Below, one piece after another: positions 10,645 to 54,597 of a stretch of DNA of 64,000 nucleotides (its first letter is position 1; each line of letters begins with the position of its first letter). The notes below the pieces were generated by a model, which saw only the letters and a program-made list of their open reading frames with translations, ran no database searches and was not told the origin of the DNA. Where the stretch lies: assembly GCA_943736015.1 (NCBI GenBank), contig OX031062.1, positions 32,089,462 to 32,153,461 of the forward strand, read 5' to 3'. The stretch comes from Tridacna crocea. Its lineage: Eukaryota > Mollusca > Bivalvia > Cardiida > Cardiidae. A program made the translations under genes and the position numbers.

Positions 10645-10862
10645 TAGCCTGGCATTCAGGCCCTGCATTTATATAAGTCATTCTAATAAACAAGGTAGAC
10701 AACTACAGCAAAGTCACTGACATATGTGTTGTTACTTGCCCTTCTTCTGAAATTAAGTCAGACATTCAGAAGAGTTGGAACACAGACTTTTCGTTTTTTA
10801 TTTTTACTTGATGATTATGTTTTAATGAAAAGGGTCCATTTAACGGACTGACACCAGTCTGC
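10645..10862 (+). mobile_element. Family G copy G1, empty at the A insertion site
   Basis: Runs from TAGCCTGGCATTCAGG to ACACCAGTCTGCC. At the place where other G copies carry a family A element it reads GCATTTATATAAGTC instead of the simple TTAA, four extra bases. Confidence 0.75.
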
Positions 10863-10990
10863 CCCTGACCCCTAAGCTGCTAAGCGCAACTCACTGTCCT
10901 TTTGCGAACAGTGTAGATCAAGATCAGATTGCACCGAACGTGCAATCTGATCTTCAATCTACACTGTTCGTTAAAGAAACACTGATTTTA
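10863..10990 (-). mobile_element. Family D hairpin element, partial
   Basis: Carries the AAGCTGCTAAGCGC end and a complete hairpin AACAGTGTAGATCAAGATCA with complement. The far end is lost. It lies between two G copies in opposite orientation. Confidence 0.65.
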
Positions 10991-11097
10991 GAAAAAAAAA
11001 AAGTTTGAATTAACATTATTGGTTTTTTTTTGTCTATCAGTCCGATTGCATGCAGGTTGCCTTCTTTTCTAGATTTCTTCTAATTTTTATTTCGCAC

Positions 11098-11430
11098 AGT
11101 ATTTCAGAAGAAGGGCAAGTAACAACACATATTTCTGTGACTTTACTATAGTTGTGTACCTTGCTTGTTAGAATGACTTAACCCTTTCCCAAACAATCCC
11201 TGGTTTTTACGGGTCAGGAACAGAAGCCTTTTGAAAACATTGTGGGAAAAGGAGAAAATGCTGGTTACCAGCATTTTCTCCTTTTCCCACAATGTTTTCT
11301 ACCCTATCATATAGAAAAATCATCCTTTTAGCAACTGTTAATTTGTCATCTGCAAAATGCTTTCATTTTGGTCTGGTCCAAAATTTGCTGTTTGGGAAAG
11401 GGTTAAATGCAGGGCCCGAATGGCAGGCTA
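11098..11430 (-). mobile_element. Family G copy G2, carrying a family A insertion
   Basis: G sequence in reverse (TTACTTGCCCTTCTTCTGAAAT seen as its complement) from 11098 to the TTAA, resuming after the A element at AATGCAGGGCCCG. The distal third of G is missing. Confidence 0.75.
11178..11406 (-). mobile_element. Family A hairpin element, full length, inserted in G2
   Basis: Reference copy for the family: 229 bp from TTAA to TTAA, ends TTAACCCTTTCCCAAAC. The central 66-bp palindrome is perfect over GAAAACATTGTGGGAAAAGG and AGAAAATGCTGG on each side. The terminal CCC next to TTAA and the TTAA target suggest mobilisation by a piggyBac-type transposase; this is inference, as no transposase is present. 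Subtype with CCTGACCCGTAAAAACCAGG. Confidence 0.9.
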
Positions 11431-11689
11431 ACCTAGTGCCTGTGTAATGCAAAGAAATGACCCTCCCCTGAAAAATGACTCTACGTAGAGAAATGACCCA
11501 TGGGTCATTTTGTAAGGAGGGTCATTTCTTTTCATTACACCCGCTGAATTTTCACATATTCTTGCTATTTTATTTTGCCCCAATAAACTTTATTATTTTA
11601 CACCGATTGCGAAAAGCTGTAAATACGGCCACATCTCATTAATCAATTTCGACCGTTGTTTCCTTGCCCCATATTCGTCCACAAATCTA

Positions 11690-11905
11690 CTCCATTAAAG
11701 TTCCATCTTAAGTCTCATTCTAGAGTTGAAAGTAACGCAGTTTCTGATTGGCTAGACCTTTTGGGTAAAACAAACAGAAGCTGCGTAACTTCTGAATTTG
11801 AAGTCACATCTGAATAAGACTTAGAATTTGAAAGTTAGACGATTTCTGATTTGCTACACCATTTTGGTTTGGCCTATCAAAAGTCACGTTACTTTGAAAT
11901 TAAGA
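11690..11905. repeat. Family E, old diverged copy
   Basis: Contains CTTCTGATTGGCTA-like arms facing TAGCCAATCAGAAG-like arms with mismatches; the outer ends are decayed. Confidence 0.5.
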
Positions 11906-11964
11906 AAATTCTTTTGAAGATTACACAAGAACAACTATTCATAAACTGAAACAAGGTTTATATT

Positions 11965-12265
11965 CAGGATCAGTATTCACCAACCATTTTTGAGAATATT
12001 CTTTGTCTTTTTCTGCATTATTTTCTAAATTTGTGAGTAGCACAGCTTCTGATTGGCTAAACCGAATGGTTTAGCCAATCAGAAGCTGTTGTATTTTCAA
12101 ATATAGAAAATTGATAATTTTTCTACATTTTTAAGTAACATAACTTTTGATTGGCTAAATCGAATGATTTAGCCAATCAGAAACTATGTTACTTTCAAGT
12201 ATAGAAATTCTGTGAAACATGTCAAAGAACGTCTCTAAGAATTAATGATTGGTGAATACAAGCCC
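11965..12265. mobile_element. Family E element with duplicated core
   Basis: The ends AGTATTCACCAACC and TTGGTGAATACAAGC face each other. Inside are two successive palindromes (12040-12095 and 12137-12192), each of GATTGGCTAAA.CGA type, so the core is doubled relative to other E copies. Confidence 0.7.
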
Positions 12266-12535
12266 GGTTTAGTCGGTGGAAAGAGGTAATGAATTTCGGC
12301 ATTTCTTCTCTTCTCGTTAGATTATTTGCCAGGTCGCATCAAGGTACTACATTCATGAAATTAACAACCCGTCATTTTCAATTTATAATGAAATCTTTTT
12401 AACAAGAGGGGGGGGGGGAGATCTTTATTTTCCACCCTTGTCCTTTTCAGATAAGGTAGATCTACCAAAGCATTTCTTTTTTTTTTAACGTAATATATTT
12501 TTGGCAAAGGCCGATTCTAGCAGTTTCATAAGCCA

Positions 12536-12608
12536 AGTATAGTGATAAGTCACGATCAGATTGAACACAATATGCAGTCTGATTCTAGATGTACGCTGTC
12601 TGATACCT
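12536..12608. mobile_element. Family D hairpin, degenerate
   Basis: Remnant of the AGATCAGACTGCACA/TGCAGTCTGAT core immediately left of a family A TTAA. Confidence 0.45.
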
Positions 12609-12838
12609 TTAACCCTTTCCCAAATGACAAATTTTTAGACTGTCCCAAACTCAAAGTGTTTGCAGATGACAGTTTTGAATTTCATGAGATGGCAGAAAGT
12701 TTTCCGAGAGGCTAGAAAACACTGTGGAAAAAGGAGAAATTGCTCGTTACGAACAATTTCTCCTTTTCCCACAGTGTTTTTTCCTAAGACTTGTACTGCA
12801 GACACGTAAAAACCAGGGCTTGTTTGGGAAAGATTTAA
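12609..12838 (+). mobile_element. Family A hairpin element, full length
   Basis: TTAA to TTAA. The hairpin centre is of the alternative GAAATTGCTCGTTACGAaCAATTTC type, with one mismatch, and the outer stem uses ACACTGTGG, matched by CCACAGTGT. Confidence 0.85.
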
Positions 12839-12849
12839 ACATAATTGTG

Positions 12850-13042
12850 TCACTCTTTGAAAAAAAATAGACTGGTCCAAAGTGAAATTTTCTCGGACAA
12901 CAAATTACATGTTACTGAAAAGATGGGAAAAGCTGAAAATACTGGTTACAAGCATTTTCTTCCTTTTCCAAAATGTTTTCAAAAGTTTTCTTCTTCGACC
13001 ATTCTTCATTGTCATTAAAACTCGAGATTGTGTTTTAAAGTA
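12850..13042 (+). mobile_element. Family A element, diverged
   Basis: Directly follows the preceding A copy. Recognised by TAGACTGGTCCAAA, a worn hairpin (CTGGTTACAAGCATTTTCTTCC) and ATTAAAACTCGAGATTGTG. Confidence 0.6.
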
Positions 13043-13171
13043 TTAAAAGCTTTCAATATGCACGCCCAAAAAAAATGGGCTTATTTCACTTTTAATATTG
13101 CGCTCTGAGGTTTTATAAATATCAGATTCACTTTGTAAAATTTTAATGACTCATTGTTTAAAAAAAAAAGT

Positions 13172-13394
13172 TTAACCCATCATCACACAATCTCTACTTT
13201 TGACGCCCCTGAGAAAGAAGCCTTTAGAAAACACTGTGGGAAAAGGAGAAAATGCTGGTAACCAGCATTTTCTCCTTTTTCCACAATGCTTTCTACCCTT
13301 CACAATTTCAAATTTTCAGTCACTTTTCTTTTGTCGTCTGCAAATGCTTTCGATTTAGACAAACCGAAAATTTTGTCGTTTGGCAATGAGTTAA
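13172..13394 (-). mobile_element. Family A hairpin element, full length
   Basis: Ends TTAACCCATCATCACAC and GGCAATGAGTTAA. Subtype with TTTTGACGCCCCTGAGAAAG. Hairpin arms differ at only a few positions. Confidence 0.85.
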
Positions 13395-13444
13395 AAAGCC
13401 GTCGATGTAACATTTTGAAAATCGTTATACCTTTAGGTTTATTG

Positions 13445-13535
13445 CTTGAATAACTATGAAAACATTGTGGTGAAAGATTAAATTGCTCGTTAAGACCAGT
13501 TTCTCCCGTTGCCATAATGTTTTCAGAATTAGACT
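13445..13535. mobile_element. Family A hairpin remnant
   Basis: A degenerate palindrome, GAAAACATTGTGGTGAAAG to GTTGCCATAATGTTTTC, with a TTGCTCGTTA-type centre that no longer pairs. Confidence 0.5.
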
Positions 13536-13599
13536 ACTTCAAAACTGAAAAATGTCGTAGGCATTACTTTTACTCTTTTTTTTTAATAATGTAGACGAT

Positions 13600-13725
13600 A
13601 CCAGAATCTTTTGTAGACAATGTAGATCTAGATCAGACTGCACAGAAGTGCAGTTTGGTTTATGATCAACACTGTCCAGTTCTTCATAGTAGATTATGAA
13701 CGAACTGCCTCTTGATTTAACAGCG
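13600..13725 (+). mobile_element. Family D hairpin, diverged
   Basis: The TGTAGATCTAGATCAGACTGC arm faces GCAGTTTGGTTTATGATCA with mismatches; flanks as in the 14180 pair. Confidence 0.6.
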
Positions 13726-14180
13726 GAAATATATTTGTAACATTTGAGAAAGTGCATTTTATTTATTCAGTAATGAAAAAAGTTAATGGATAAAATAAGA
13801 GCAAATCAGGCGGTCGATTTAGTGAATGAGCATTTCCAGTGAATTACGGAGCGAACTACTTTTTTTTGCTATATCGGAAAAAAAAAAGCAAGATGTCGCC
13901 CGTTTAAAAAGGCGGTCAACTGCTATACATACGCGGGAAAAGAGTACGATGTACCTGTTAGGAAAATAAAGATGCTAATAAGAGATGACATTCGTTGGGG
14001 TCACGCGGTACAATTTAGCGAGACAACAATAAAAAAAAAATCTCAACAGGGTTCACTGCGTTCACTTTGGCTCGAATCCTGGAGCCATTAATATCTGGGC
14101 CTTCATGGATTCGGTTTTTTTTTTTGGGAAAAGACAGCGTTTTAAAAAAAAAGAGATGTTGTACTATTTTCATATCATAG

Positions 14181-14470
14181 ACGACACCAAAAGCTTTTGT
14201 GGACAGTGTAGATCGAGATCAGACTGCACAGAACGTGCAGTCTGATCTCTGATCTACGCTGTCCACTGCCGAACTATCATTATAACCGAATTGTCTCTTG
14301 ATCCTGCTCTCTTTTTATACTATGGACGACACCAGAAGCTTTTGTGGACAGTGTAGATCAAGATCAGACTGCACCGAACGTGCAATCTGATCTTTGATCT
14401 GCACTGTCCATTGCCGGACTATCATTATGACCAAATTGTTTCTTGATCCTGCAGCGTAGCTGTCACGATG
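14181..14470 (+). mobile_element. Two family D elements in 145-bp tandem
   Basis: ACGACACCA.AAGCTTTTGTGG begins at 14181 and again at 14326, and the following hairpin and ATCATTAT.ACC.AATTG flank repeat as well. This is a direct duplication of one D fragment, with a few differences between units. Confidence 0.8.
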
Positions 14471-14529
14471 ACGAGTATATAGCCTTTGAGAAAATGCACT
14501 TGGTATTCACTCGGTAATGAAAGAAGCAA

Positions 14530-14655
14530 TGTATGTGCGAAAAATATCGGCTTACTTCAGACTGCGCAGTTAGTGCAAGCTGACATGAGTCGAAAGTTTT
14601 TGCTCTGGGTCAGATTTATGCACTTGAAAGGACCGTTCTACTTCATGATTCAGTG
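14530..14655 (+). mobile_element. Family F element, diverged
   Basis: GTGCGAAAAATATCGG, ACTGCGCAGTTAGTGCAAGC and TACTTCATGATTC mark an F copy with a decayed palindrome. Confidence 0.55.
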
Positions 14656-14887
14656 GATGTTTTGACAAAATGGATCCACAATTTGAGACGACTTCGTTGC
14701 CTGTTGCAATGCGTTTTATACGGAGATGCATCGAATCTGGGTTTTTTTTTTCACAACGCCGTTGATATATCAGTTTCCTTTGCAAATTTTGCATCTTTAC
14801 TTTTTTCAACCCAACGCCGTTCATTTATCAGTTTTCTTTGCAAAATTTTGCATCTTTTATATTTACAACACAAGTGTTTCAGGGCCC

Positions 14888-15085
14888 GTATTCACCAACC
14901 ATGCATTCTTTAGACCAGTCTTAGTCTTACTCCCCAGAACTTTCTATGTTTGTAAGTAACACAACTTCTGATTGGCTAAACCATTCGGTTTAGCCAATCA
15001 GAAGTTGTGTTACTTACAAATTCAGAAAACCATGGAGAATAAGACTATGAATAGTCATCAAGAATGATTGGTGAATACGGGCCAT
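14888..15085. mobile_element. Family E element, well preserved
   Basis: GGGCCCGTATTCACCAACC at the left and GGTGAATACGGGCC at the right. The central arms AACACAACTTCTGATTGGCT and complement are perfect over more than 30 bp. No clear target duplication. Confidence 0.85.
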
Positions 15086-15298
15086 CTTCGCAGAATGTCA
15101 TTTCTTACTGTCACAATACCACAAAACTAAGACTTTATAAACTTTCTTCGGCTTGCTGTTTAGGAATAATATAAATCAACTGCCCCTGCAGTATTTTTCA
15201 TAGTAGTTCACAAAAGAGCACACATGTACTTGTTTTCCTTTAGTTCAAAAGTTCCTAATCCAGGGTCTTTAAAAGTCGGATGGTGTGGTACAAAACGG

Positions 15299-15512
15299 TT
15301 AAAGTCTTTACCGCACAGTCCTGCCTTTTAGAGACCCTGAAGAGAGAAGACTTTTAAAAACATGTTTGGAAAAGGAAAACATGCTGGAAACCAGTATTTT
15401 CTCCTTTTCACACAATGTTTTTTACCCTATCAATTAACAAGGTTTAAGTTGTTATCTGAAGATGCTTTGAATTTGGCTGAGTCTAAAAATTTGTCGTTTG
15501 GTTAAGAGTTAA
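15299..15512 (-). mobile_element. Family A hairpin element, diverged
   Basis: TTAA to TTAA. Hairpin arms carry several unpaired changes (ACATGTTTGGAAAAGG against CCTTTTCACACAATG). Confidence 0.75.
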
Positions 15513-15613
15513 TAGGTTTTGATAAATTAATGCCAGTCCGGTAAATTTAGCTTCAGATTTTGAAACGCCAAGAGACTATTTTGCCATCTTAACAGACTTT
15601 AAACCTTGATTTG

Positions 15614-15905
15614 TTAACCTTTTGCAAGGTAATACCTTGGCTCACGACCCAGAAGAAGAAGGGATTCGAAAACATTGCTGGCATAATCAATTTTACCCTT
15701 TCCCACAATGTTTCTACCGTTCCAGTTTCTATTCCCTTCTCTAGAGCTATGGTTAGTCTGTCGTTTGCAAAATACTTTCAGTATATCGTCGGTTTACTCC
15801 AAAAACCTCGTAACTACAGCTTGTTTCAAGCTGTAGTTACGAGGTTTTTGAAGTAAACCGACGATATACAAATTTAAGATTTTGTTTCTGGTAAAGACTC
15901 GATTA
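15614..15905 (-). mobile_element. Family A element carrying a second palindrome
   Basis: A-type flanks (TTAACCTTTTGC.., TTTGCAAAATACTTTCA, AAATTTAAGATTTTGT) surround a damaged A hairpin and an 89-bp insertion at 15781-15869. Confidence 0.65.
15781..15869. repeat. 89-bp near-perfect mini-palindrome
   Basis: Two 43-bp arms beginning GTATATCGTCGGTTTACT pair with a single mismatch around a TTT loop. It is inserted in the right flank of a family A element, and I see no second copy in this window. Confidence 0.9.
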
Positions 15906-16085
15906 ATTCATTCTTGTGCAATGACGACTTTTGAAATTTAAACTCAGAAAATCTGCATCTACGAAAATCTTTATGTTTTTTTTTTTGCAATAGGAGCATT
16001 GAAATTGCTGACACAATGTCACAAACCCATGTTCGAATTCACAACCCCGTCACGTGACCACTATGATTACCAGGGTTTGTCAAAG

Positions 16086-16219
16086 AATAATAATAATAAT
16101 AATAATAATATCTTTATTTAGTGAAGGTTAAACATTAAGACACATTGCAAAGTCTTTTTTTACAGTGTTGCCTTCAAGATGAGTGGAACAACGACATTAA
16201 CCATAATAATTAGGAGAAC

Positions 16220-16250
<31 letters not shown>

Positions 16251-16380
16251 TCTTTATTTAGTGAAGGTTAAAACATTAAGACACATTGCAAAGTCTTTTT
16301 TACAGTGTTGCCTTCAAGATGAGTGGAACAACGATAGTAACCATGATAATTAGGATAATAATAATAATGATGATGATTGG
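16086..16380 (-). repeat. LINE 3' end with (ATT)n tail, tandemly duplicated
   Basis: Two units of about 137 bp begin with (AAT)n followed by ATCTTTATTTAGTGAAGG and end near GATAATTAGGA. Read on the minus strand this is a retrotransposon 3' UTR with an AATAAAGAT(ATT)n tail. Only the 3' end is duplicated. Confidence 0.75.
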
Positions 16381-16489
16381 TGATACTGATGATTGTTGTG
16401 TATGAAAATAAAGAAGATAAATTAATGGCAAAATAATGTTGGAATATGAGTTATACGGACAGACACACGTTTTTTTTTATAGATGTATA

Positions 16490-16740
16490 ATTACGTAACT
16501 ATAATGAGGACTGTACGATCAATAAATGCTGTTTGAACTGTTTTTGAAGCTAATTATTGATTTCGCATCTCTGATGGAAGTAGGAATTTCATTCCACACA
16601 TCCATGCTGAAATACGGGAATGCCCGTTTCTTGTACGATGTATTGAATATAAAGTTTACGATGTCACTGACCTTAAATTATAATTTGTGTTACTCGAAAA
16701 CGAAATAATGTCACTCATAATATATCTAAGAGATAGGTTA
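16490..16740 (-). pseudogene. Decayed LINE protein C-terminus
   Basis: On the minus strand, broken frames give NTNYNLRS, then TRNG, FQHGC and SIRDAKSIISFKNS-type pieces, the usual tail of LINE ORF2 proteins (a Y.LR...W...P..IR....SF pattern). Several frameshifts and stops. It belongs with the (ATT)n 3' end to its left. Confidence 0.55.
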
Positions 16741-16753
16741 TCACATCTGTAAT

Positions 16754-16982
16754 TTAACCCTTTACCAAACGACAAAATTTTAGACTGGTTCAAATTGAAA
16801 GCATTTGCAGACGAAAAAATAAAGGTGACTAAAAAATTGAAATTCGTTCTGGAAAGGATAGAAAACACTGTGGGAAAAGGAGAAAATGCTGGTTACCAGC
16901 ATTTTCTCCTTTTCCCAGAGTGTTTTCAAAAGGCTTCTTTCTCAGGGGAGTCAAAAGTAGGGAGTGTGTGGTAATGGGTTAA
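16754..16982 (+). mobile_element. Family A hairpin element, full length
   Basis: 229 bp, TTAACCCTTTACCAAACGAC to TGTGGTAATGGGTTAA, with an almost perfect hairpin (one outer change, CCCAGAGTG). Confidence 0.9.
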
Positions 16983-17165
16983 ACGCCGGTGTGATATTTA
17001 CATCTGTTAGCGTATGTTAACCACTTACAAGCGTAAGTTGAGAAAAAAGATTTTTCGAAAATTGAAAACTATATGAACAACATTAGTTTTTCCATTGTTT
17101 TTAAGAAAGCATATCCTCTTTCAGAATTCTAAAAACAACTAGAGCAACAATAGAAAGCATGCGGT

Positions 17166-17362
17166 CAGGATCCATATTCATCAACCGTTCTTCGGAGTAT
17201 TCTTGGCCTTATTATCAAGAATTTTCTAAATTTGAAAGTAACATACCTTCTGATTGGCTAAACCATATGGTTCAGCCAATCAGAAGTTGTATAACTTTTA
17301 AAATCCAGATTTACACCAAGAAAACCCTTAATTAAGAATCATGGTTGGTGAATGCAGGCCCC
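17166..17362. mobile_element. Family E element
   Basis: Arms ACCTTCTGATTGGCTAAACC and GGTTCAGCCAATCAGAAG; ends diverged (TCCATATTCATCAACC, GGTTGGTGAATGCAGGCC). Confidence 0.75.
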
Positions 17363-17384
17363 GATTTTGATTTCTAGAAAGCTA

Positions 17385-17500
17385 TGGGGGTCCTTGCGCA
17401 AGACAAACTTAGCACCCTTGCCTGGTGCTTGTGAGCAATAAAATCAGGGAAACAAACAAACAAGTCAGCTGTTACCGTGACATTACTGAAGTAATTTCGA
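17385..17500 (+). repeat. SINE tail relic
   Basis: CCTTGCGCAAGACAAACTTAGC and GTTACCGTGACATTACTGAA match the 3' half of the tRNA-headed SINEs seen at 32440 and 52540. No head. Confidence 0.45.
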
Positions 17501-17541
17501 GAAATGAAAAAAAAAAATACAGCTTGAAAACACAGAATTCG

Positions 17542-18088
17542 TTAAAGGTGGGTATTAAGAATTTTCACATCACACCAAATTAAAAAAAGTATATGTCAAT
17601 GAAATTTATATGAAAAAACAATGCAAATCATCAGTAATTAAGAATCATAAAATAACAAAAAAAATTTTTTTTTGGTGGTATTCCCTTAAAAGGCTACGTA
17701 GGCTCTTAAGCTATTTTTAGATTTCCCGCCAAAAAAAAGCATTGTGGGAATGTTAAGTGACTTGCACGTGACTAATGACTATCAAATTCCATAACATAAC
17801 AAACATGTAATTATTTTCCATAGTGTCTAGAACTTCGGACGCTACGTTTGAAGCTTCGTCTGTGTATTTCCGGCATGTAAATGTGCGAGTTTGCTCATGT
17901 AAAAATAGACTATTTTTCCCTTCAAAGACGATCTGAGCTGTAGTAAATCTCTAATTTATCTAGTTGTCGGATGGTTTTCGACTACTGGGGTTTAATGAAT
18001 GAAAATTATAAGGCTTTGGGAGTATAAGGATGATTGTTTTTGTATTTTTGTAAAAATTTCGTCCCAAAATCTGAAGGGCCACCTTTAA
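17542..18088. mobile_element. Family K element, 547 bp
   Basis: Ends TTAAAGGTGG and CCACCTTTAA are inverted repeats. The whole length matches 38708-39259 in order. No ORF; probably a non-autonomous DNA transposon using TTAA. Confidence 0.75.
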
Positions 18089-18224
18089 GATACAAATTTG
18101 TTATCACAGGGTAAAGATGCAACTATATCGTTGGGTACGAAAAGTCGCGACTGTACTATCATAAAGTAAACAACAAAAACTATCCACTCTTTGACCTCCC
18201 ATGGCAATTTAAGATATCTTTGCC

Positions 18225-18295
18225 AATAGTTTAGATCAAGATCAGACTGCCCTGAACTGCAATCTAATCTAGGATTGCCTACTCTTTCCGACAAT
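18225..18295. mobile_element. Family D hairpin, degenerate
   Basis: TTTAGATCAAGATCAGACTGC faces a decayed GCAATCTAATCTAGGAT. Confidence 0.5.
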
Positions 18296-18377
18296 TGGTG
18301 ACATAATTACTTTGTCCCAAAATCGCTTGACAATAAATTAAGTTTTCTTGCAGCCAATACTTTAAAACATCTGTGTA

Positions 18378-18602
18378 CCATTTTGACCAAACGACAAACT
18401 TTTATAGATTTACCTATGTTGATAACATTTGCAGACGACAAATTAAAACTGGTTTAGATACTGGAACTTACTCCGAATGTAGAGAAATCATTGTGGAAAA
18501 AGGAGAAAATGCTTGTAACCAGCATTTTCTCCTTTTCCAACAATGTTTTCAATTTTCTTCTTGCCTAATTATCATAAAAACACGGAATCATTTCGTAAAG
18601 GT
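18378..18602 (+). mobile_element. Family A hairpin element
   Basis: GACCAAACGACAAACTTTTA start, ATTGTGGAAAAAGGAGAAAA hairpin, TTTCGTAAAGG right end without TTAA. Confidence 0.75.
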
Positions 18603-18880
18603 CTATATATTTGGCTTATTTTTGGGGCTTCAAAGTGTAACAAAAACAAGCAATTTCGTTGAAATGACATCCCCCGCCGAAGAAGACCTTTTTTGATACA
18701 AACGTATAAGAGGTATTGTGCTTTGCATGTACATGTGGCCTTTTTGTTATTGGTCCACAGTTGTGACAAGTTCAATGTAAAAACTTTGTATAGTTTTGAA
18801 GAGAAGACTCCAAACATCAAAAGTGTACTAAAGTGTTACTCAAGTGAAACTTAAAATCGCTCCCAGTCGGCCATTTTGCA
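18603..18880. other. Intronic sequence without recognisable feature
   Basis: No repeat or coding signal noticed. Confidence 0.3.
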
Positions 18881-18904
18881 TCGAATCAAAAAAACAAAAA
18901 AAGT

Positions 18905-19075
18905 GTCGCGGGGGAATGGGTCATTGTACATGTGTATAAAGTTTCACGAAATTCCGTCCAATGGTATTGGAGATATTTGCCGGGATGGACAAACGGACGG
19001 ACGGACGGACGGACGGAAGGGCGGACGGACGGACAACACTAAAACTATATCCCTGCGCCTACGGCGGGGGATAAA
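18905..19075 (+). repeat. Interspersed repeat with (GGAC)n core
   Basis: GTTTCACGAAATTCCGTCCAATGG, then about 45 bp of GGACGGAC repeats (18988-19035), then ACACTAAAACTATATCCC and CGGCGGGGGATAA. The fixed flanks mark a dispersed element rather than a plain microsatellite. Confidence 0.55.
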
Positions 19076-19079
19076 AAAA

Positions 19080-19737
19080 AGAAGAGCTCGCGTGATGACA
19101 AAGTACTGAAATGACCTTGGACTTCTTTACGCCATCAAGAATTCCTCACATACCATCTGCTTTGACACGAGACAACGGACAGTGGTCATTGTAAATGGCC
19201 CGGAGATGTCACCGACCGTTTCAATTAACATTCTATTAGCAGTTAAAACTGACCAACGCCATCAGGCAGCCAGATTGACTACAATGGTCCCCGTTCGACA
19301 TCAAGCTACACAGTTTAGCTGTTTAAGGCCGGGAAACCAATCTACCGGATATCTCCAATTTTAAATTTAGTGCCCGTATGTTCACAGCCTCGTTTTCACG
19401 TTCCGTCGGGGGCATTTACGTACGAATCCATTCTATGTTTAATCAAGGCTGAACTTTTTACTGGCTAATTTTCCCCGCAGGTACGGAGGAATAAATTATA
19501 ATTTCCGACATAATTTCATTCCGGTTACAACCTCTTTTTCTCATTTCAGAGCCTACGCCTTTTTTCCCCCGTCACTCTTCATTATAGCTTGTCAACAACA
19601 GAAAATTAGCGCCTAACTACCGTCCGCGCAAATGAACTGTTACCAGTACAAGTTTCTGACATCGAGAAAGTACCCGTATAAAAGGTCATTCAAATCTTCA
19701 CAACTTTTTAAGAGATGGAGAAAGAATTTAACCCTTT
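19080..19737. other. Intronic sequence without recognisable feature
   Basis: Slightly higher GC than its surroundings, but no convincing exon or repeat on either strand. Confidence 0.3.
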
Positions 19738-19956
19738 CCCAAACAATCCCTGGCTTTCACGACCCCGAGAAAGAAGCCGTCTGAAAACATTGTGGGAAAA
19801 GAAAAAAATGCTGGTAACCAGCATTTTCTCCTTTTCCCACATTGTTTGCTTCCCTTCCCCAAACAAATTTCAGGTTTTGAGTCGCATGAATTTTATCGTC
19901 TGCAAATGCTTCCAATTTGGACTAGTTTGAAATTATGTCGTTTGGTAAGGAGTTAA
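19738..19956 (-). mobile_element. Family A hairpin element
   Basis: TTAACCCTTTCCCAAACAATC to GTAAGGAGTTAA. Hybrid of subtypes: CCCTGGCTTTCACG with CCCGAGAAAGAAGCC. Confidence 0.85.
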
Positions 19957-41400: not shown

Positions 41401-41836
41401 CTAGACTGGTGTCAGTCCGTTAAATAGAGGCTTTTCATTAAAGGAAATCATCAAGTAAAAATGCAAAACCAAACTTCTGTGTTCTCATTGTTCTAAATGT
41501 CTGTATTTCAGACGATGGGTAAATAACAACACATATTTCTGTGACTTTGCTGTAGTTGTGTTCCTTGTTTATTAGAATGGCTTAACTCATTACCAAACGA
41601 CAAAATTTTTGGCTTGTCCAAATCAAAAGCATTTGCAGACAACAAAATGAAAGTGACTGAAAATTTAAAATTTGTTTTGTGAAGGGTAGAAAACATTGTG
41701 GGAAAAGGAGAAAATGCTGAATACCAGCATTTTCTCCTTTTCCCACAATTTTTTCTAAAAGCTTTTTTCTCAGGGTCGTCAAAAGTAGGGATTGTGTGGT
41801 AATGGGTTAAATGCAGAGCCTGAATGCCAGGCTATT
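41401..41836 (-). mobile_element. Family G copy G3, carrying a family A insertion
   Basis: CTAGACTGGTGTCAGTCCG to GAATGCCAGGCTA on the plus strand, complete on both sides of the A element at the same TTAA as G2 and G4. Confidence 0.8.
41582..41810 (+). mobile_element. Family A hairpin element, inserted in G3
   Basis: 229 bp, TTAACTCATTACCAAACGAC to TAATGGGTTAA. Orientation relative to G is opposite to the A copies in G2 and G4; subtype with GTCAAAAGTAGGG. Confidence 0.9.
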
Positions 41837-45206: not shown

Positions 45207-45429
45207 TTAATCCTTTCTCAAACAATCCCTGGTTTTTACGGGTCTGGAATAGTAGCCTTTTGAAAACATTGTGGGAAAAGGAGAAACTGCTGGTAACCAG
45301 CATTTTCTCCTTTTCCCACAATGTTTTCTACCCTATCATAGACAGAAATGATCTTTTCAGGAAGAATTGTTGTTGTAAATGCTTTCAATTTGGTGTAGTC
45401 CAAAACTTTGTCGTTTGGGAAAGGGTTAA
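45207..45429 (-). mobile_element. Family A hairpin element, full length
   Basis: TTAATCCTTTCTCAAACAATC to GGGAAAGGGTTAA; subtype as 11178-11406. One unpaired change (AAACTGCTGG). Confidence 0.85.
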
Positions 45430-46822
45430 CACATTTTGGACTATAATCTGTGTTAATCAGTAATATTATAAAAAGAATCTGACACTCGTTGGTTTATGAG
45501 GTAAAAATTTATCAAACTCATCCCCCCAAAAAATTATTAAGGTAGCCAAAGGCTCGCTTATTAACATTTTTGTAGACTGGTTTGATAACTTTTTATCTCA
45601 AAAACCAGCTCATGTCAGATCCTATACATCTGTAACTACATGTATATACATAATCATATAAACATCAGTGCAAACTATTGGTTCTCTATCTAGCTGTTAT
45701 CCATAAATCTCTATTGAAATGTAAGGTAAATGAATGCTGGAATCGAACATATATATATGCAAAAGTTTTAAATATAGAGGGTATAATTAAAACCAGAATA
45801 TCATTTTTCCGTGTTTGCCTGTTAAAGAGAAATTTAAGAAAAATAAATCGAGTGCAATTTGTCGGCAGCAATAAATGAATAAAGAAAATTGAGGGAAAGG
45901 AAGAAAAAATATCTTCATTTGAAAATTCATGTATTACATGTATCTTATTTAAGAATATAATCTAACAAATGACCTTTTTATGTCGAACTGTTACGAACAA
46001 ATGAATGTGGAATAAAATGCATTAAATTGATCAACCATTCTAATTATACTTTGCATTTTTGTCCCTAGCCAATCATTAGCTGGCGGATGACCTGTTGCTG
46101 TATTTTTATGCGCACTGTATATCTTTTTGTTTTATTTCAAAGACCTACTAAAAATGTAGTGATATGTCAGACATTGTGTACTCTAAATTCTTCGTTCACC
46201 GACCCTGCAGAGTATTCCTATGTCAGCCTCTTACTTGAAATAATGCAATTGTATACGTGCGCAAATAAAGTGTTTTGATTCATTTATAAGTCTTCATGAA
46301 AACTCGTGTTCTATTGATGTATTCTAAAAAAAAAACAGATTAAAAAATGTATATGGATGTGTACTCCTTTTAAAGCGAAATCGCTGTAAGGAAAGACTCA
46401 CCATCTATTTGCAATTCTGTCACCAAGTGATTTCATGTGAGAATGTACATGTATATAAATACCTACATGTGCTACTGATTCAATATACATGTTGTTTATG
46501 ATAAGGATGCGTGGATAAGTAAGCGAGAGTTTTACTCTTTCTTTTGTTACACTAAAAATTGCATGTCAACTTATACTCTTCTACTACATAATTATAGATT
46601 CCGTTCACGTAATGATCTTTCTTATAATGCCTGTAAGCATTAGATATCTCAACTAGCTTGAAAGCTTATGAATCAATAGTAAAGTGTCAAAAGAACTGTT
46701 CACAACTTCCGGTATAGATAAAAAGGTCATTTATCAAATATTAAGAAATTCGGGACTTTCAGGCCTTTGATTTTTTTTTACTGTTTACTCGACGATAATA
46801 TTTTATCAGTCAGTATTAAAAA
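45430..46822. other. Upstream sequence, no recognised repeat
   Basis: One of the longest stretches free of the repeat families. Short open frames at 45678-45878 and 46087-46278 have no recognisable domain or splice context. Confidence 0.35.
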
Positions 46823-47062
46823 TTAAATCTTTTCCAAAGGAGAACATTTTATGAACTACTGGTCAAAACTGAAAGCGTTTGAAGACGAAAAAATAAATGA
46901 GACTATATAGAAATTTGAAATTTATTTGGATTAAAGGGTAGAAAACATTGTCGGAAATGGAGAAAATGCTGGCACAGCATTTTCTCCTTTTCCCACAATG
47001 TTTTCAATAGGCTTCCTTCAAAGGGTTGTTTAACCCGAGTCTGGATTGTGTGGTACATGGTA
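46823..47062 (+). mobile_element. Family A hairpin element, diverged
   Basis: The hairpin centre is GCTGGCACAGC, a shortened tip; right flank TTGTGTGGTACATGGTAAA. Confidence 0.75.
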
Positions 47063-47305
47063 AAAAGCATTCACAGTTGACAATATATAAAGGCTGAAAT
47101 TATCCGCTTCGTATCTCAGTATGCAAAGAAAAAAAACAGAAGTAAAACTAGAAAATTTTACAAAATTTCCCAAATTTAAAAAGCGTACCTAGACGGGGTC
47201 TCGAAACAAAACAGTAATTTGGTGAAGGGTTTAACTGACTCTAAATAAGTTTAGTTGAATTCGATTTGCTACCACATTTGCACTAAATGAACTTCACACC
47301 CCTTC

Positions 47306-47535
47306 TTAACCCTTTACCAAACAGCAAATTTTGGACCAGACTAAATTGAAAGCATTTTGCAAATGATAAATTAACAGTTGCTAAAAGAAGATTTTTCTAT
47401 ATGGTGGGGTAGAAAACATGGTGGGAAAAGGAGAAAATGCTGGTTACCAGCATTTTCTCCTTTTCCCACAATGTTTTCAAAAGGCTTCTATATTCCTGAC
47501 CCGTAAAAACCAGGGATTGTTTGGGAAAGGGTTAA
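47306..47535 (+). mobile_element. Family A hairpin element, full length
   Basis: TTAACCCTTTACCAAACAGC to GGGAAAGGGTTAA, with ACCCGTAAAAACCAGG. Hairpin perfect but for ACATGGTGGG. Confidence 0.9.
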
Positions 47536-47614
47536 TCGCTAATCCTGGTATATCATCTTCCTCAATTCTAAAGATAGAAATTTTCCTGGAATGAGAGATT
47601 TTTACTTTTGATTC

Positions 47615-47998
47615 GAGCTATGTTCTGTGAAAATAGGATTTAACTCATTACCAAAAGACAATTTTTTGGGCTTGTCCAAATCGAAAGCATTTGCAAAGTA
47701 AAAGTGACTGAAAATTTGAAATTTGTTTAGTGAAGAGTAGACAACATCGTGGGTAAAAGGGGTACCCCACGGGTACCAGCATTTTGTCCTTTTCCCTCAA
47801 TGTTTTCTAAAGGCTTCTTTCTGAGAGTCGTCAAAAGTAGGGATTATGTGGTAATGGGTTAATGTATCGGCAAACATTGGGGACTTAGGTCAGCTTGCGC
47901 AGTCTATTTGGGCAGACCTTTGTCGGAACTATTTGTTCTGGGTCAAATTTTCTACATGTCAAAGAATCGTTTTACCTCATGATTCTAGCGGTTGTTAG
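47615..47998 (+). mobile_element. Family F element split by a family A insertion
   Basis: GAGCTATGTTCTGTGAAAATAGG (F left end) leads to the TTAA of the F motif TTTAATGCATC, where A sits. F resumes at TTAATGTATCGGCAAAC and ends ACCTCATGATTC. Confidence 0.8.
47640..47862 (+). mobile_element. Family A element inserted in F, damaged hairpin
   Basis: TTAACTCATTACCAAAAGAC to TAATGGGTTAA. The left arm has been replaced by GTAAAAGGGGTACCCCACGG, which forms a small palindrome of its own. Confidence 0.8.
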
Positions 47999-48066
47999 AT
48001 AAAATGTTCTCTAGAGATCAATGATTATTTCACAACTTTTTTGGTGTAATGCGTCACGGCCATACA

Positions 48067-48294
48067 TTAACCCTTTCCCAGACGGCAAATTTTGGACCAG
48101 ACCAAATTGGAAGCATTTTGCAGATGACAAATTAACAGTTGCTGAAAAGATGATTTTTTATATGATAGGGTAGAAAACATTGCGGGAAAAGGAGAAAATG
48201 CTGGTTACCAGCATTTTCTCCTTTTCCCACTATGTTTTCAAAAGGCTTCTATTCCTGACCCGTAAAAACCAGGGATTGTTTGGGAAAGGTTTAA
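48067..48294 (+). mobile_element. Family A hairpin element, full length
   Basis: TTAACCCTTTCCCAGACGGC to GGGAAAGGTTTAA. Hairpin with two outer mismatches. Its right TTAA abuts a family L copy. Confidence 0.88.
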
Positions 48295-48604
48295 GGTAAT
48301 ACCATTCTAATGGAAAACAGCTATTTCCTATATAATATTATCCTAAAAAAGTTGCTATGATTGAAAATGAGTATAATTGTACTACTGTGACCGACCCACT
48401 TTTTTTCCCATTTTTTCCCTTGAATTATCATTTATAAATCTAGCGCCACTTTTTTCTCATTACAAAGGGAGATAATAATTACCTCCCTTTTCAGAAAAAA
48501 ACTAACAAAAATATCAACAAATAAATTCAAGATTGACAGCAATGGAGTGAGATTCTGGTCGGTTAGAAATGTGCAAAAATATTATATCAGTATAAATCCT
48601 TATT
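48295..48604. mobile_element. Family L, right end cut by family I
   Basis: GGTAATACCATTCTAATGGAA start, AATTACCTCCCTTTTCAG middle; the right terminal repeat is replaced by a family I element. Confidence 0.7.
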
Positions 48605-49042
48605 TTATGCTTTGGTAGGATATCGAGAAATAGCAGTGAAAATATTTTTCGATCTTACACTGGGAATACCAGTGAAGTTAACCGATTTTCATGTTCTTGT
48701 TGCCTAGGTTAAATTTTGCGCGTGCCTCGCGACCAGATGGAAAATATGACGTCATTTACCTTATATTTCTCTCGCTTGACGTAATATTGCAAATAGCGGA
48801 AAAGAACTGTACTGGATTTTGATAAAACTCCTCCAAGAAAGGGTAAAAAGCATGAAATAAATAGAAAATTTGTTTTTTTGGGTGAAAGATCAAAATTTAT
48901 TTCATCTCGTGAACACCATCGGTATTATTTTCACAAGTGGAGCAGCCACTCGTGAAAATATAACCGATGGTGTTCACGATGCGCCACTCGTGAAAATATT
49001 ACCGATGGTGTTCACGAGATGAAATAAATTCCAATCTTTCCC
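48605..49042 (-). mobile_element. Family I composite with repeated foldback arm
   Basis: Minus-strand module (48605-48870, with ATATGACGTCATTT) followed by the foldback. The right part of the palindrome (GTGAAAATAT.ACCGATGGTGTTCACGA) occurs twice, at 48951 and 48988. Confidence 0.75.
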
Positions 49043-50170
49043 GAAAAAAAGAAAACCCCAAATATCCTCCATTTATTTATCAACAAATGAGAAATTTCAT
49101 CACATGTTGCACTAGAAGTGTTAGGATGGTAATACCTTAAACCCCCTTCAGCCAGAGCGTTGCTTATATAATTATAGACGTTATCGTTTTATCACAGATT
49201 ATTCAAATATATTGTTTTTTTTTTTTACTTCCTAGTTAAAATCAAAGTACTGATAGAACTGAAGGCCAGGAAATTGAGGATACGAAACAATACAAGAGGT
49301 CAATTTCAATTAATACAAACAAGTAGACGGACAGGTATACAAGCGGATTCCACTAAGCCCCTGGAATTCTTGGTTTCAACAGGAAATTTTGAACTGATAC
49401 AAGAAAGCACCAGCCAGAAACTAATTAAGCCAGAGCTAGGCATGTGCTCACAGTTATGGGTTGCTTGACAATGGCTTAGAATACTTAGTAATTTGTCGTG
49501 CTTTTAAACAATCTCAAGTCAAAATTGAACTATTCAATCCGTGCAATACCAACTTTGGTTATCTAAATTTTCTGAAAACATGTGAAGTCCTGAATGACGT
49601 TATTTTTCGCATTTATGAGTCGTATATTAACAGTAGCATGTTTTCCCCCCAAAATTTATCCTAATCAAATTTCTTTTTTTGTCAATTATGTCACACATAG
49701 ATTGTATACATGTATTAAAAATGTTTTATCACTATTTTAATTGCCAAATCAACTATCTCTATTTAATTTCCACTGACGACCCACATGAAAATAGTAATCA
49801 CTTCATGAGAGATTATAGGCCAACATATAATTACAATTAAAAACTGAGATTTATAAGCAATTTTTACAGATGATAAATTAAGGTGGTTCATAAGAAGCAA
49901 AATTTAACATGGTGTTAGCCGAAAGAGCCTTGAAAAACATTGTGATTTTGTCTCAAAATCAGGATGCCCTGTGGACAACACGCTTTTTAAATCAGCCTGG
50001 CTGGTGTAACGTAATTTTGAGAGAGATAGAAAATAGGCTGTTTGAAAGATATTTGTAGCTTGCACTAGTCAGTATGCCTCCAATCCCCAGATTTTCAGAA
50101 TTATCAACATTGAAAGTATCTTGCAGACAACTGAAGTGTTGCTAAAATGATGGTTTTATCAGTGGAATAT
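49043..50170. other. Upstream sequence; possible A scrap near 49860-49945
   Basis: CCTTGAAAAACATTGTGATTTTG resembles one side of an A hairpin. The open frame at 49274-49468 is repeat-poor but has no recognisable domain. Confidence 0.35.
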
Positions 50171-50174
50171 AGTT

Positions 50175-50295
50175 CAGTTGGTAGCGAAGTACACTTTAAG
50201 AGTCCAAAAGCTCGGTCAATTTCCTATTGAGGATTGATGATAGGTATTATGATAGGGTACAATTCTCTCTCATCACATACTAAACATACAGGTCT
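50175..50295 (+). repeat. SINE head relic
   Basis: ATAGTTCAGTTGGTAGCGAAG resembles a tRNA A-box region and TTGAGGATTGATGATAGGTA the following SINE body; the B box is degraded. Confidence 0.45.
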
Positions 50296-50367
50296 CTGAA
50301 ATCTAAGTCCTTTGAATATCTGTAAATAAGTGGGGTTTTTTTTTGTTTTTGTTTTTCAAAAATCTCC

Positions 50368-50520
50368 CTTAACCAAAATACATTTTTTTCTGGAAAAAAA
50401 GTTGAAAGCAGTTGCAGAACACAAATCAAATGTTAATTAAAAAAGTAACATGTTCATTCGTCTTTCAAATGCTAGAAAATATTGTGGGAAAAGGAGAAAA
50501 TGCTTTTGTGGAAAAGGGTT
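50368..50520 (+). mobile_element. Family A element lacking the right hairpin arm
   Basis: ATATTGTGGGAAAAGGAGAAAATG breaks off into CTTTTGTGGAAAAGGG; flanks worn. Confidence 0.6.
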
Positions 50521-50533
50521 TCAATATACAGTA

Positions 50534-50780
50534 ACGAGAGATGTGATTCAATAAAACACTTTTTGGGATCGAACTGGTGACTTCACGATCGACGGCTGGA
50601 CATGAATCTCGTATAGGGTGATGGAAAATGTACAAGTAGGAAAGGGCAGGAAAATTTACGAGAGATGTGATTAAATAAAACACTTTTTGGGATCGAACTG
50701 GTGACTTCACGATCGACGGCTGGACATGAATCTCGTTTAGGGTGATGGAAAATGTACAAGTAGGAAAGGGCAGGAAAATT

Positions 50781-50781
<1 letters not shown>
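50534..50781 (-). repeat. Tandem duplication of a 124-bp unit with tRNA-like piece
   Basis: ACGAGAGATGTGATT begins at 50534 and 50658, and the intervening 124 bp repeats with only two changes seen. On the minus strand each unit contains CCAGTTCGATCCC, a B-box match from a SINE head. Confidence 0.85.

Positions 50782-50824
<43 letters not shown>
50782..50824 (+). repeat. (GA)n microsatellite
   Basis: About 20 GA repeats that start at the same ACGAGAG sequence that opens each 124-bp unit. Confidence 0.95.
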
Positions 50825-50828
<4 letters not shown>

Positions 50829-51176
50829 AAAAAAAAATATTCATACAATAAATCAAAATAATGGGCATATATGAATATTACAAAAAAAAAAATACATTAA
50901 ATGACAAGCGAACCACTACAGAAAAATATAAGCATTTATTTGGTTTCAAATTAAAGTCAATCAAATAGATATTTTAAGAATCACGCAGGTGTAATCTATT
51001 TGTGACAGGTGTAAAAGGTGTGAAATACATCCTACCAGTGTGAAATAGGCAGTTATAAACAATGGCAAAACTACCAAATAACTCTTGGATAAAGGTAACT
51101 AATACACATAATGTGCATACTAAAGACAACGAAGTTTCAAAAATAATTTTTATAGATAACTTGAATAACGATAGGG
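50825..51176. other. Upstream sequence without recognisable feature
   Basis: AT-rich, unassigned. Confidence 0.3.
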
Positions 51177-51184
51177 ATGAAATT

Positions 51185-51300
51185 TGATGTTGGGGTCGAT
51201 TTCTCTAAAATTTTATTTGGGGACGATTTCACCAGATTTCTCCGGAGAAATCGTCTCCAAGCAGTTGGGGGACGATTTTTCCAGGGGCCGTTTTATCCAG
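51185..51300. repeat. Cluster of GGGGACGATTT-like motifs with palindrome
   Basis: GGGGTCGATTTCTC, GGGGACGATTTCACCAG, GGGGACGATTTTTCCAG and GGGGCCGTTTTATCCAG recur, and GATTTCTCCGGAGAAATC (about 51234-51251) is a perfect palindrome. May be the end of a transposon with subterminal repeats. Confidence 0.5.
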
Positions 51301-51887
51301 CAGTCGGAAATTGCTATCACAATGTTCAGCGGGTGTTATGCAGAGAAGTGGACACTCTAGTGGGAAATAATTTATCGGTGTAGAAAGCAGCACAGTCAAA
51401 GTACCTTAGATTTAGTCGATATACATAAGAAAAAGTGATAAACGTAACACGGGTCAATATTCTATAAGTAGTTGCTTTATTTACAATCGCATTTTAACAG
51501 CGGAGACACGTTTTGTGACACATATGTTCAAATGTCAACACAACGTTATAGATATTAACCTTATATCGCGTAGGAATACACAACTGCCAGATAAAGCTAA
51601 GTTCATTAGGTTACCCCTTTATTAGGACAATGTTAATGACGAAAACGGGATAAAAAACACACACTCGTCAGTTATTTAAGGGTCGTAATACCCTTGCTAT
51701 TCAGTGGCACTTTGCAGATGAAAGCTTTGAGGGAAACTAGTTGTTTTGGCGGACTCAGCGATATCAAGTGGACACACCGTTCAACATTTTGTCTGAAAGT
51801 AGTCCGGAAAAGGTAGCTTACGATCCCTATAGGCAACGGAATCCCTTGAGAGGGATTCCCTGGCCTAAAAACACATTAGTAATGCTT
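51301..51887. other. Upstream sequence without recognisable feature
   Basis: No repeat family member or exon noticed. Confidence 0.3.
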
Positions 51888-52029
51888 TTTTGAAAAAAGG
51901 AGTTTAATGCATCTGCGATAAGTATCGACACAGGTCAGCCTGCGCAATACGCGCAGGCTGATCTGGGTCGAAACTTTTCGCTATCGGTCAGTTTTTCTGT
52001 ATGTCCAAGGACCAGTCTATCTCATGATT
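51888..52029 (+). mobile_element. Family F element
   Basis: AGTTTAATGCATCTGCGATAAG, palindrome CAGGTCAGCCTGCGCAATAC and complement, end ACCAGTCTATCTCATGATTA. Confidence 0.8.
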
Positions 52030-52137
52030 AATTCAATTGCAATACGAAACAAATATATTTATATAGGTTATCGCTCTGTCACAGATTTTTCACACAGGCC
52101 TATTTCTTCCACTATAACTAGAAAAAATAGCACATTA

Positions 52138-52220
52138 GCTATGCTCTGTAAAAAGGGCGTTCTCTGCATCTGCAGACAGTATCATCTGAGGTAAGCCTGT
52201 GCAGTACGCAGTTTTTTTTT
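52138..52220 (+). mobile_element. Family F, left part
   Basis: GCTATGCTCTGTAAAAAGGGCG to CCTGTGCAGTACGCAG; continues into an A hairpin scrap (CCTTTCCCCACAATGTTTTC). Confidence 0.55.
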
Positions 52221-52255
52221 TATCCTTTCCCCACAATGTTTTCCAAGATCTCTTT

Positions 52256-52590
52256 TTTCAAGCCTAAACCCGCCGGTAGCGAGCAGGACTTGAGAACCCT
52301 GAGACCTTGAGAACTAGGGTTCGATCCATGGTCACGACTTCTGGCTCGGCAAATTTCTTTCTGAGGATTGATGACAGTCACTGCGACAGGATTCATTCCT
52401 CTCCCACCGCTGACCATTGTTTTAGACGATGGATATGTGGGAAAGCAGCTAGTGGTTTGTAAAGAAAATTGTTAGAAGTACTAGTAAAAGTTACTCCAGG
52501 GACGCATGATACGTGCACTTGCCGCCGTGATATTACTGAAATAATGTTGAAAACGGCGTTAAACACCATACAATCAATCGATCAATCTCT
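52256..52590 (+). repeat. tRNA-headed SINE, near full length
   Basis: A perfect B-box core GGTTCGATCC at 52318-52327, body with CTGAGGATTGATGACAGTC, and tail GATATTACTGAAATAATGTTG..GGCGTTAAACACC with an (AATC)n end (CAATCAATCGATCAATC). The head does not fold as a tRNA. Confidence 0.75.
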
Positions 52591-53040
52591 TTTCTCAAGG
52601 TCGCTAAGACCCGAAGTAGAGTGGTAAAGGGTCACGATAACGAAGTTTTTATTGAAGAAAGGTAGATGCCGAATTGTTAGTACAAAGTCATTAACCTAGC
52701 ACGTCATATACGTACTCATTTAACAAAATTAATGGGAAAATTCTTAAGAAACGAAGTTATCATGATAATCATATTGAAATAAATTTTTGATGAATTTCGG
52801 GGTCGGTAACAACATTATGATCTTTTTTTTTTATCATTTATCACAATGTTTTCAGTAAATATTCTATTACAGATGGGTCAAACTATTTTCACATGAAAGA
52901 ACTTCTCTTCTTTACATTTGTACAAGTATTTGAAAGAAAACTGTAGTTATGAAACATATTTAGATATTTTGCCATCTAGTCTAAGAACGTTAATTTTTAA
53001 GTTAAGAACTTCATCTCATTGAATTCGTATTCAAACTGGT
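52591..53040. other. Upstream sequence; A hairpin scrap at 52835-52860
   Basis: TTTATCACAATGTTTTCAG is one side of an A stem. The remainder is unassigned. Confidence 0.35.
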
Positions 53041-53185
53041 AGGTTTGGTCCAAACAGAATTCTTAGAAACGAACGGATTTGTCTTATATGTAACTCTGGC
53101 TACATTCACATTCATTTTGTCGTATGCAATTTTAATTTGGACAAGTCTAAAATCTTGTCATTTGGTAAAAGAATTAAAAGAAAGC
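53041..53185 (-). mobile_element. Family A right-end scrap
   Basis: TTTTGTCGTATGCAATTTTAATTTGGACAAGTCTAAAATC and TTTGGTAAAAGAATTAA match the hairpin-distal third of A. Confidence 0.5.
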
Positions 53186-53536
53186 AATACAATAGGTTTT
53201 TCAGAAAAAGACAAGCTGCGAGGTACCATAATTTCATTATTGATGAGAAATCTTGAAAAGTAATTCCATCAGCAATTGCCTCTTTTCCCCCATTGTTGAA
53301 AGATGAACTTTATGATTCGGCATATCTTCCGTGATCATAACGTTAATTCAAACTAGAGCTATCACTAAACGTGATTATACCCCCCACCAGCCCCTTTTCA
53401 CAAAAACAGGTCTTTGTCACAGAATGCAGAATGGTTCAGTACACAAGTAAGAGTTGAAAAAAAGGTCAAGGGAAGATAATTCCTCCACAAATCGCAGCAT
53501 GGTCATGAAAATTGCAAATGCAGAACTTCATATATA

Positions 53537-53797
53537 CAGTCAGACATAAGTTAAGCATCACTCGAACAAATTTAGTCATACTTTCTTTTTTAATGGATAA
53601 CCTTTTCTTTGGTATATTTCATTCTATGCATGCACCAACTAGACTAGTAACAGGCTGTTTTATAAGCCAAATGAAAGGATGGCTACGAGAAAACTTTCCG
53701 AAGCCCAGAAATGGCAAATTGTGGGAATGAGTATAATGCTGGTCTAAGCACATGGGCTATTGTTGGTCAGTTTTGGTGATGCTTATGTCTGTACAAT
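53537..53797 (+). mobile_element. Q: Tc1/mariner deletion derivative in N2
   Basis: CAGTCAGACATAAGTTAAGCA at the left and TGATGCTTATGTCTGTAC at the right are inverted repeats in a TATATA context. About 260 bp remain, so most of the transposase is deleted. Confidence 0.75.
53679..53790 (+). pseudogene. Tc1-like transposase N-terminus, frameshifted
   Basis: ATG at 53679 opens MATRKLSEAQKWQIVGM, the start of a Tc1-type helix-turn-helix DNA-binding domain. A small insertion then ends the frame at about 53747, and the continuation NAGLSTWAIVGQFW is readable in another frame. The catalytic DDE domain is absent. Confidence 0.7.
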
Positions 53798-54018
53798 TAT
53801 ATAGGAATACTGTGTGTAAATCTAAGTTCAGTGCCTTAAAAAAAGTCTTGAGTATTTCGCAGCACAAATTTGTGTCTACGGACAGACGGACACACCGAAT
53901 GACAGACGAAAGGACGGACAGACGGACGACGGAGGGATGGACAAACGGACAGACAGTAATGGTGATTCCAGTACACCCCGCTCCACTTTGTTGTGGGGGT
54001 AAAATGATCGCAGGAATG

Positions 54019-54150
54019 AGCCATGCCCTGTTAAAAAGGGGGCGTATCGATTCAGGTCAGCCTGTCCAGTCCGGGTAGGCTGATCTGGACCGAAACATTT
54101 TGTTATCAGTGTATTTTCTGCATGTCAAAGGACCTGGCGTTATTCATGCT
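54019..54150 (+). mobile_element. Family F element
   Basis: GCCATGCCCTGTTAAAAAGGG, GGTCAGCCTGTCCAGTCCGG, GGCTGATCTGGACCGAAAC, CATGTCAAAGGACCTGG. Abuts G4. Confidence 0.7.
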
Positions 54151-54151
54151 T

Positions 54152-54597
54152 TAGCCTGGCATTCAGGCCCTGCATTTAACTCTTTACCACACGACAAAAT
54201 TTTAGACTGGTTCAAATTGAAAGCATTTGTAGACAACAGAATAGAAGTGACTGAAAATTTGAAATTTGCTTTGTGAAGGGTAGAAAACATTGTGGGAAAA
54301 GAAGAAAATGCTGGTTACCAGCATTTTCTTCTTTTCCTACAGTGTTTTCAAGAGGCTTCTTACTCAGGGGCGTCAAAAGTAGGGATTGTGTGGTAATGGG
54401 TTAAGTCATTCTAATAATCAAGGTACACAACTGCAGCAAAGTCATAGAAATATGTGTTATTATTTGCCCTTCATTTGGAATACACGTTATATCAGACATT
54501 CAGAACATTGAGAACACAGACTTTTTATTCTTGCAGTTTTACTTGATGATTTTTGTTTTAATGAAAAGACTCTACTTAACGGACTGACACCAGTCTA
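54152..54597 (+). mobile_element. Family G copy G4, carrying a family A insertion
   Basis: TAGCCTGGCATTCAGGCC up to the TTAA, then, after the A element, AAGTCATTCTAATAATCAAGG to GACACCAGTCTA. Complete on both sides. Confidence 0.8.
54176..54404 (+). mobile_element. Family A hairpin element, inserted in G4
   Basis: 229 bp, TTAACTCTTTACCACACGAC to TAATGGGTTAA. The stem uses AAAAGAAGAAAATGC paired with GCATTTTCTTCTTTT, a compensated G-to-A pair relative to the usual AAAAGGAG. Confidence 0.9.

Follow-up and report, generated by a model that had tools for sequence, protein, structure and literature searches.

Separate insertions of a piggyBac-type TTAA MITE at the same sites of another MITE in the genome of Tridacna crocea

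A stretch of 64,000 nucleotides of the Tridacna crocea genome (hereafter the window; C7:32089462-32153461) contains four copies of a short repeat, element G, three of which are interrupted at the same TTAA (site 1) by another repeat, element A. This raises the question of whether G offers A a preferred target, whether the two elements have spread together as a compound, or whether the site has been filled several times by separate insertions.

The two elements and their arrangement in the window

The features concerned, in window coordinates, are the following:

10645-10861, + strand: G1, a G element without A; TTATATAA at 10669-10676 replaces the consensus TTAA
11099-11430, - strand: G2, G split by A at site 1; its far end (lower coordinates) is degenerate
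11178-11406, - strand: A in G2 (L044), TTAA at both ends, CCCTTTCCC subtype; "+" relative to G
41402-41834, - strand: G3, G split by A at site 1; flank duplication GGTCCACAA/GGCCCACAA
41582-41810, + strand: A in G3 (G3win), TTAA at both ends; "-" relative to G
54152-54597, + strand: G4 (L045), G split by A at site 1
54176-54404, + strand: A in G4 (L045), TTAA at both ends; "+" relative to G
54283-54349, no strand: 67-bp palindrome within A, two 32-nt arms and a 3-nt centre

The corresponding palindromes of the other two A copies lie at 11233-11299 and 41689-41755. The initial annotation had placed A at an identical TTAA of G2, G3 and G4, and this was confirmed, as the same two halves of G flank each 221-bp A together with its duplicated TTAA; the G part of G2 was aligned over 140 of the 221 consensus positions. 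The reversal of A in G3 was also borne out. The statement that the inserted copies are of different subtypes holds for A of G2, which has 77.5% identity with A of G4 and 76.6% with A of G3, but not for the latter two, which share 88% identity and therefore fall into a single broad subgroup; relative to G, they point in opposite directions. G1, described as empty, indeed contains no A, but its site reads TTATATAA where 28 of 30 aligned G copies have TTTAAG, so that it has no intact empty TTAA.

The genome searched comprises 1.05 Gb in 31 contigs. The G alignment was made of the 30 top-scoring G1 loci; scoring covered 40 of the 1,651 first-look candidates, which biases the set to empty copies similar to G1. 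It delineates an element of 205-225 bp with the ends TAGCCTGGCATTCAGG ... CACCAGTCTA and four TTAAs, three of which (sites 1, 3 and 4) were counted genome-wide. Target duplications were sought in 27 loci, with three tandem near-duplicates omitted; among the 23 loci parsed, the flanks carried 12 exact 9-mer duplications, three exact 10-mers and five duplications with one mismatch, and three loci had none. The 9-bp target site duplication is the mark of a Mutator-like MITE, and judging by it G appears to be one. The available passages of PMC2774946 describe a duplication of this length for maize Mu. G has it in common with Mutator-like (MULE) MITEs, but differs from them in that the inverted repeats at its ends are only partial. 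Four near-identical G copies (L011, L012, L013 and L022) form a tandem array with a spacing of about 14.8 kb at C2 74139354-74184069.

The insert at site 1 is mostly 225 bp including one TTAA, A itself being 221 bp. Comparison of filled sites (GCATTTAA...TTAAGTCATTCT) with the empty one (GCATTTAAGTCATTCT) shows that TTAA is duplicated, as in piggyBac/TTAA MITEs. The terminal motif CC[C/T]T given for these MITEs in the available part of PMC2872659 is found in the consensus ends of A (CCCTTTACC in both groups of A described below), but some single copies start with CTC or CCCATT, so the motif is not universal. The element is also short and, as its length implies, non-coding. Because the TTAA duplication and the CCC-type ends fit the features listed in the available text of that paper, A is a piggyBac-type TTAA MITE. 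Assignment to Kolobok was considered and rejected: the passages available from PMC6004289 give RR next to TTAA for Kolobok ends, and AGGRR for T2-MITE, while A ends with CCC or CTC and has no RR/AGG termini next to TTAA.

The 52 A elements from sites 1 and 4 comprise a main group (44 elements, with subdivisions in the tree) and a smaller one of eight, whose arms differ from those of the main group, with equal length and the palindrome at the corresponding offset. Within the main group, the palindrome (conservation 0.92-0.97, versus 0.76-0.92 for the arms) is the best conserved interior part. In single-strand DNA folding it forms a near-perfect hairpin (z of -12.4, -16.6 and -12.8 for the three window copies). 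Paired double changes were found in 233 cells of 281 A palindromes, versus 69 in shuffles (maximum 91 in 200 shuffles), 156 of the 233 being at five positions, in part a subtype effect; there are 1,488 broken cells, and 30 of the 281 palindromes are perfect. Central palindromes are also present in the window repeat families D11/D17, D12 and D20.

Independence of the insertions

The filling of three copies at the same site and the long palindrome of A could suggest that G and A spread as one unit, the reversed A of G3 being due to an inversion within the palindrome. This is exceedingly improbable. Over 31 composites, in some of which the G part is truncated, a Mantel test of G against A distances gave a rho of -0.02, a value reached or exceeded in 566 of 999 permutations. 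The comparison of G and A trees, which the initial annotation had proposed as a check, was run on the 23 composites with a long enough G and revealed no shared splits among the 20 in each tree. A near-identical pair of composites is absent, the most alike A elements among the 31 having 94.8% identity, and 666 G copies are empty at site 1. Besides, a mere flip leaves the subtype unaltered. Orientations are balanced: 225 pairs of composites have the same orientation and 240 the opposite one, and the ratio at site 1 is 14:14 among 28 main-group elements, with a second ratio of 8:9. For the 31 composites examined, the compound element is thus refuted by the trees, the Mantel test and the orientations.

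Gene conversion between G copies, carrying A from one copy to another, found no direct evidence in its favour and has next to no probability, since it predicts near-identical A elements of the same orientation, while the closest pair and the balanced orientations are as given above. In the tree of 45 main-group A elements, sites and orientations are mixed as much as shuffled labels are (14 changes of orientation versus 15.5 +/- 1.7 in shuffles, and 15 changes of site versus 13.9 +/- 1.6). A duplication flanking G was seen in 16 of the 31 composites, each time a different one. The view that the A copies are independent rather than one compound copied three times is upheld by the discordant trees, the balanced orientations and the mixed subtypes, and the fillings of G sites by A are supported as separate insertion events.

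Occupancy of the TTAA sites of G

Counts at the G sites were obtained with exact-anchor patterns over the genome, with equal anchors for filled and empty copies. The tally of filled and empty G copies that had been proposed along with the trees gave 33 filled copies out of 699 (4.7%) at site 1, the empty copies rising to 1,068 when up to three mismatches over 35 bases were allowed; the reversed filled pattern, used as a control, had no matches. Thirty of the 33 fillings were fetched and are A, and the remaining three are A-like by their first 80 bases. At site 4, 22 of 487 copies (4.5%) are filled by A (24 pattern rows, 465 empty), and at site 3, judged on the first 80 bases, eight of 397 (2.0%; nine rows, one of them not A, 389 empty). 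In two of the site-4 rows (L070 and L071), G adjoins G and there is no A within G. Thus, the repeated use of a single TTAA of G, as originally described, is real for site 1 but not peculiar to it, as A is present at both other tested sites. On C3, sites 1 and 4 of a single G copy are both occupied, each by a different A element (L034 and L063).

The left-junction pattern of site 1 gave 68 rows, 37 with C as the next base, 20 of which were already among the 33 filled copies; the 17 further ones, when fetched, were 13 A elements and four empty copies with a base change. Twenty of the 31 junctions without C were fetched and included 13 base changes, three insertions of another TTAA element (AGGTGGG end), one A with an odd junction, one TTAATTAA and two other sequences. 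This second TTAA family, with the end AGGTGGGTA and Kolobok-like by that end, occupies the same TTAA of G in L107, L108 and L109, and is present in the window as well, at 17542 and 38708 (+).

TTAATTAA, seen at site 1 of one G copy (L091:21-34), matches the footprint that an excised insert should leave behind when both TTAAs are retained. Four additional bases at site 1 are likewise seen in L017 (TTTTTAAAA) and in G1; TTATATAA in G1, though two changes away from TTAATTAA, may possibly be an excision footprint.

For the background, TTAAs were drawn from DNA near G copies and from the window, which is not a random genome sample. In a first version (the window and 78 loci, with centres masked), intact A occupied 116 of 1,629 TTAAs (7.1%). 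After masking of the four G loci of the window, widening of the masks and removal of L034/L063, it occupied 92 of 1,377 TTAAs outside G (6.7%), the share of the window being 24 of 422. Repeated independent insertion at G therefore stands, but not a preference for it: occupancy at the G sites (4.7, 4.5 and 2.0%) is not above the sampled background. Judged by palindrome mismatches, A elements in G are younger (median 1.5 versus 3 in the background); with only young A counted (up to four such mismatches), occupancy is 4.4% in the background, 4.0% at site 1 and 3.9% at site 4. Occupancy of site 3 is lower than that of site 1 (Fisher P 0.03; the three sites jointly, chi-square P 0.07) and than the background (P 1.7e-4), hence TTAAs are not all equal.

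It is very unlikely, then, that G holds a preferred target of A, by an extended motif, structure or chromatin, with site 1 as a true hotspot, although three of the four window copies are filled and a rough log-odds score derived from filled sites ranks the flanks of site 1 at the 95th percentile among empty TTAAs. Site 3 has an equal flank score yet the lowest occupancy, and site 4 is filled as often as site 1 despite an unremarkable score. The enrichment of C at +3 and +9 in the flanks agrees with neighbouring A ends and may reflect the adjacency of A copies. Special targeting of G by A is largely refuted by the occupancy.

The probability of at least three of four copies being filled at one site is 4.1e-4 at the genome-wide rate of site 1, 9.3e-4 at the TTAA occupancy of the window and 1.4e-3 at the sampled background, each value applying to a single site and being uncorrected for how many sites and repeat families were inspected visually. 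Since A is so common, the three filled copies of four in the window are a chance cluster, a local fluctuation. The 32-nt palindrome arm of A has 203,566 exact matches genome-wide, one element being able to yield two, and seven in the window, where there are about 50 A hits. A crude extrapolation from A hits per arm match gives about 1.0 to 1.5 million A hits in the genome, fragments counted. Coverage by A amounts to about 15% in the window and 25% in the locus flanks. With such abundance, nested insertions at the same site are to be expected; the nested pattern itself is ordinary, and the abundance of A is the striking part.

Origin, relatives and significance of element A

The data are, with high confidence, best explained by an older MITE, G, and a later mass mobilisation of A, which hit TTAAs with little preference and filled G sites independently. 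G, of roughly 205-225 bp, would have spread first, leaving 9-bp target duplications. A, a 221-bp piggyBac-type MITE whose insertion at TTAA duplicates that target, would have been mobilised later and in very large numbers, with little preference beyond TTAA. The TTAAs of G would thus each have been hit in separate events, a few percent of the G copies receiving an A, in one orientation or the other and of differing subtypes. G probably preceded A, as A interrupts G and the flank duplications of G, where found, lie outside the composite.

The mover of A was probably a transposase of the piggyBac family, as indicated by TTAA, the CCC-type ends and the piggyBac genes in the genome, where 118 matches to the piggyBac domain (PF13843) were found, many with open frames. 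A transposase bordered by the terminal repeats of A was not found in the six loci read out of these 118 matches. One locus, L086:176-2940, is a piggyBac-type element with TTAA-CCCTTTATATAC ends on either side of a transposase match whose open frame spans 624 aa, and three other matches score nearly the same. It shows little sign of being the autonomous partner of A, its ends having only CCCTTTA in common with A; in both L086 and L087, the TTAA-flanked inverted ends match nothing of A beyond CCCTT/CCCTTTA.

Among known systems, the closest printed parallel found, as far as the available part of PMC2872659 goes, is the work on CMITEs, families of piggyBac/TTAA MITEs in Acropora corals; they measure about 100 bp, and A. 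millepora is estimated to contain 1,600 copies. Compared by features, A resembles the CMITEs described there in its TTAA duplication and CCCTTTCCC-type ends, in having several families that differ in their ends and share a conserved internal region, and in tandem arrays. The insertion of A into G is similar to CMITE-IN, in which, according to the same passages, the TTAA of a different small element had received a CMITE. Unlike the CMITEs as described in that text, A is 221 bp long, has a 67-bp palindrome as its conserved interior and is hundreds of times more abundant. The T2-MITE/Kolobok elements of Xenopus, as portrayed in the accessible portion of PMC6004289, are likewise very abundant MITEs with a TTAA target but differ from A in their ends, as given above. 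A published case of insertions of one transposable element into another at one site had no match in the literature searched, and the available passages of PMC10294476 and PMC8905726 do not contain element A.

A many-copy repeat provides hundreds of replicate target sites, so that reuse of a site and preference for it can be separated by counting; in this way, a measured rate takes the place of a suspected site targeting. The results point to an unusually abundant palindromic piggyBac-type MITE. It is possible, if rather doubtful, that A, at a crude million copies or so, ranks among the animal DNA-transposon MITEs with the highest copy numbers, filling several percent of the sampled TTAAs, and that matched changes in the two arms preserve the pairing of its 67-bp palindrome, either because amplification benefits from the hairpin or because the arms correct each other. 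If this is true, multi-copy repeats like G would be natural replicate targets for gauging how close a transposon has come to saturating its sites.
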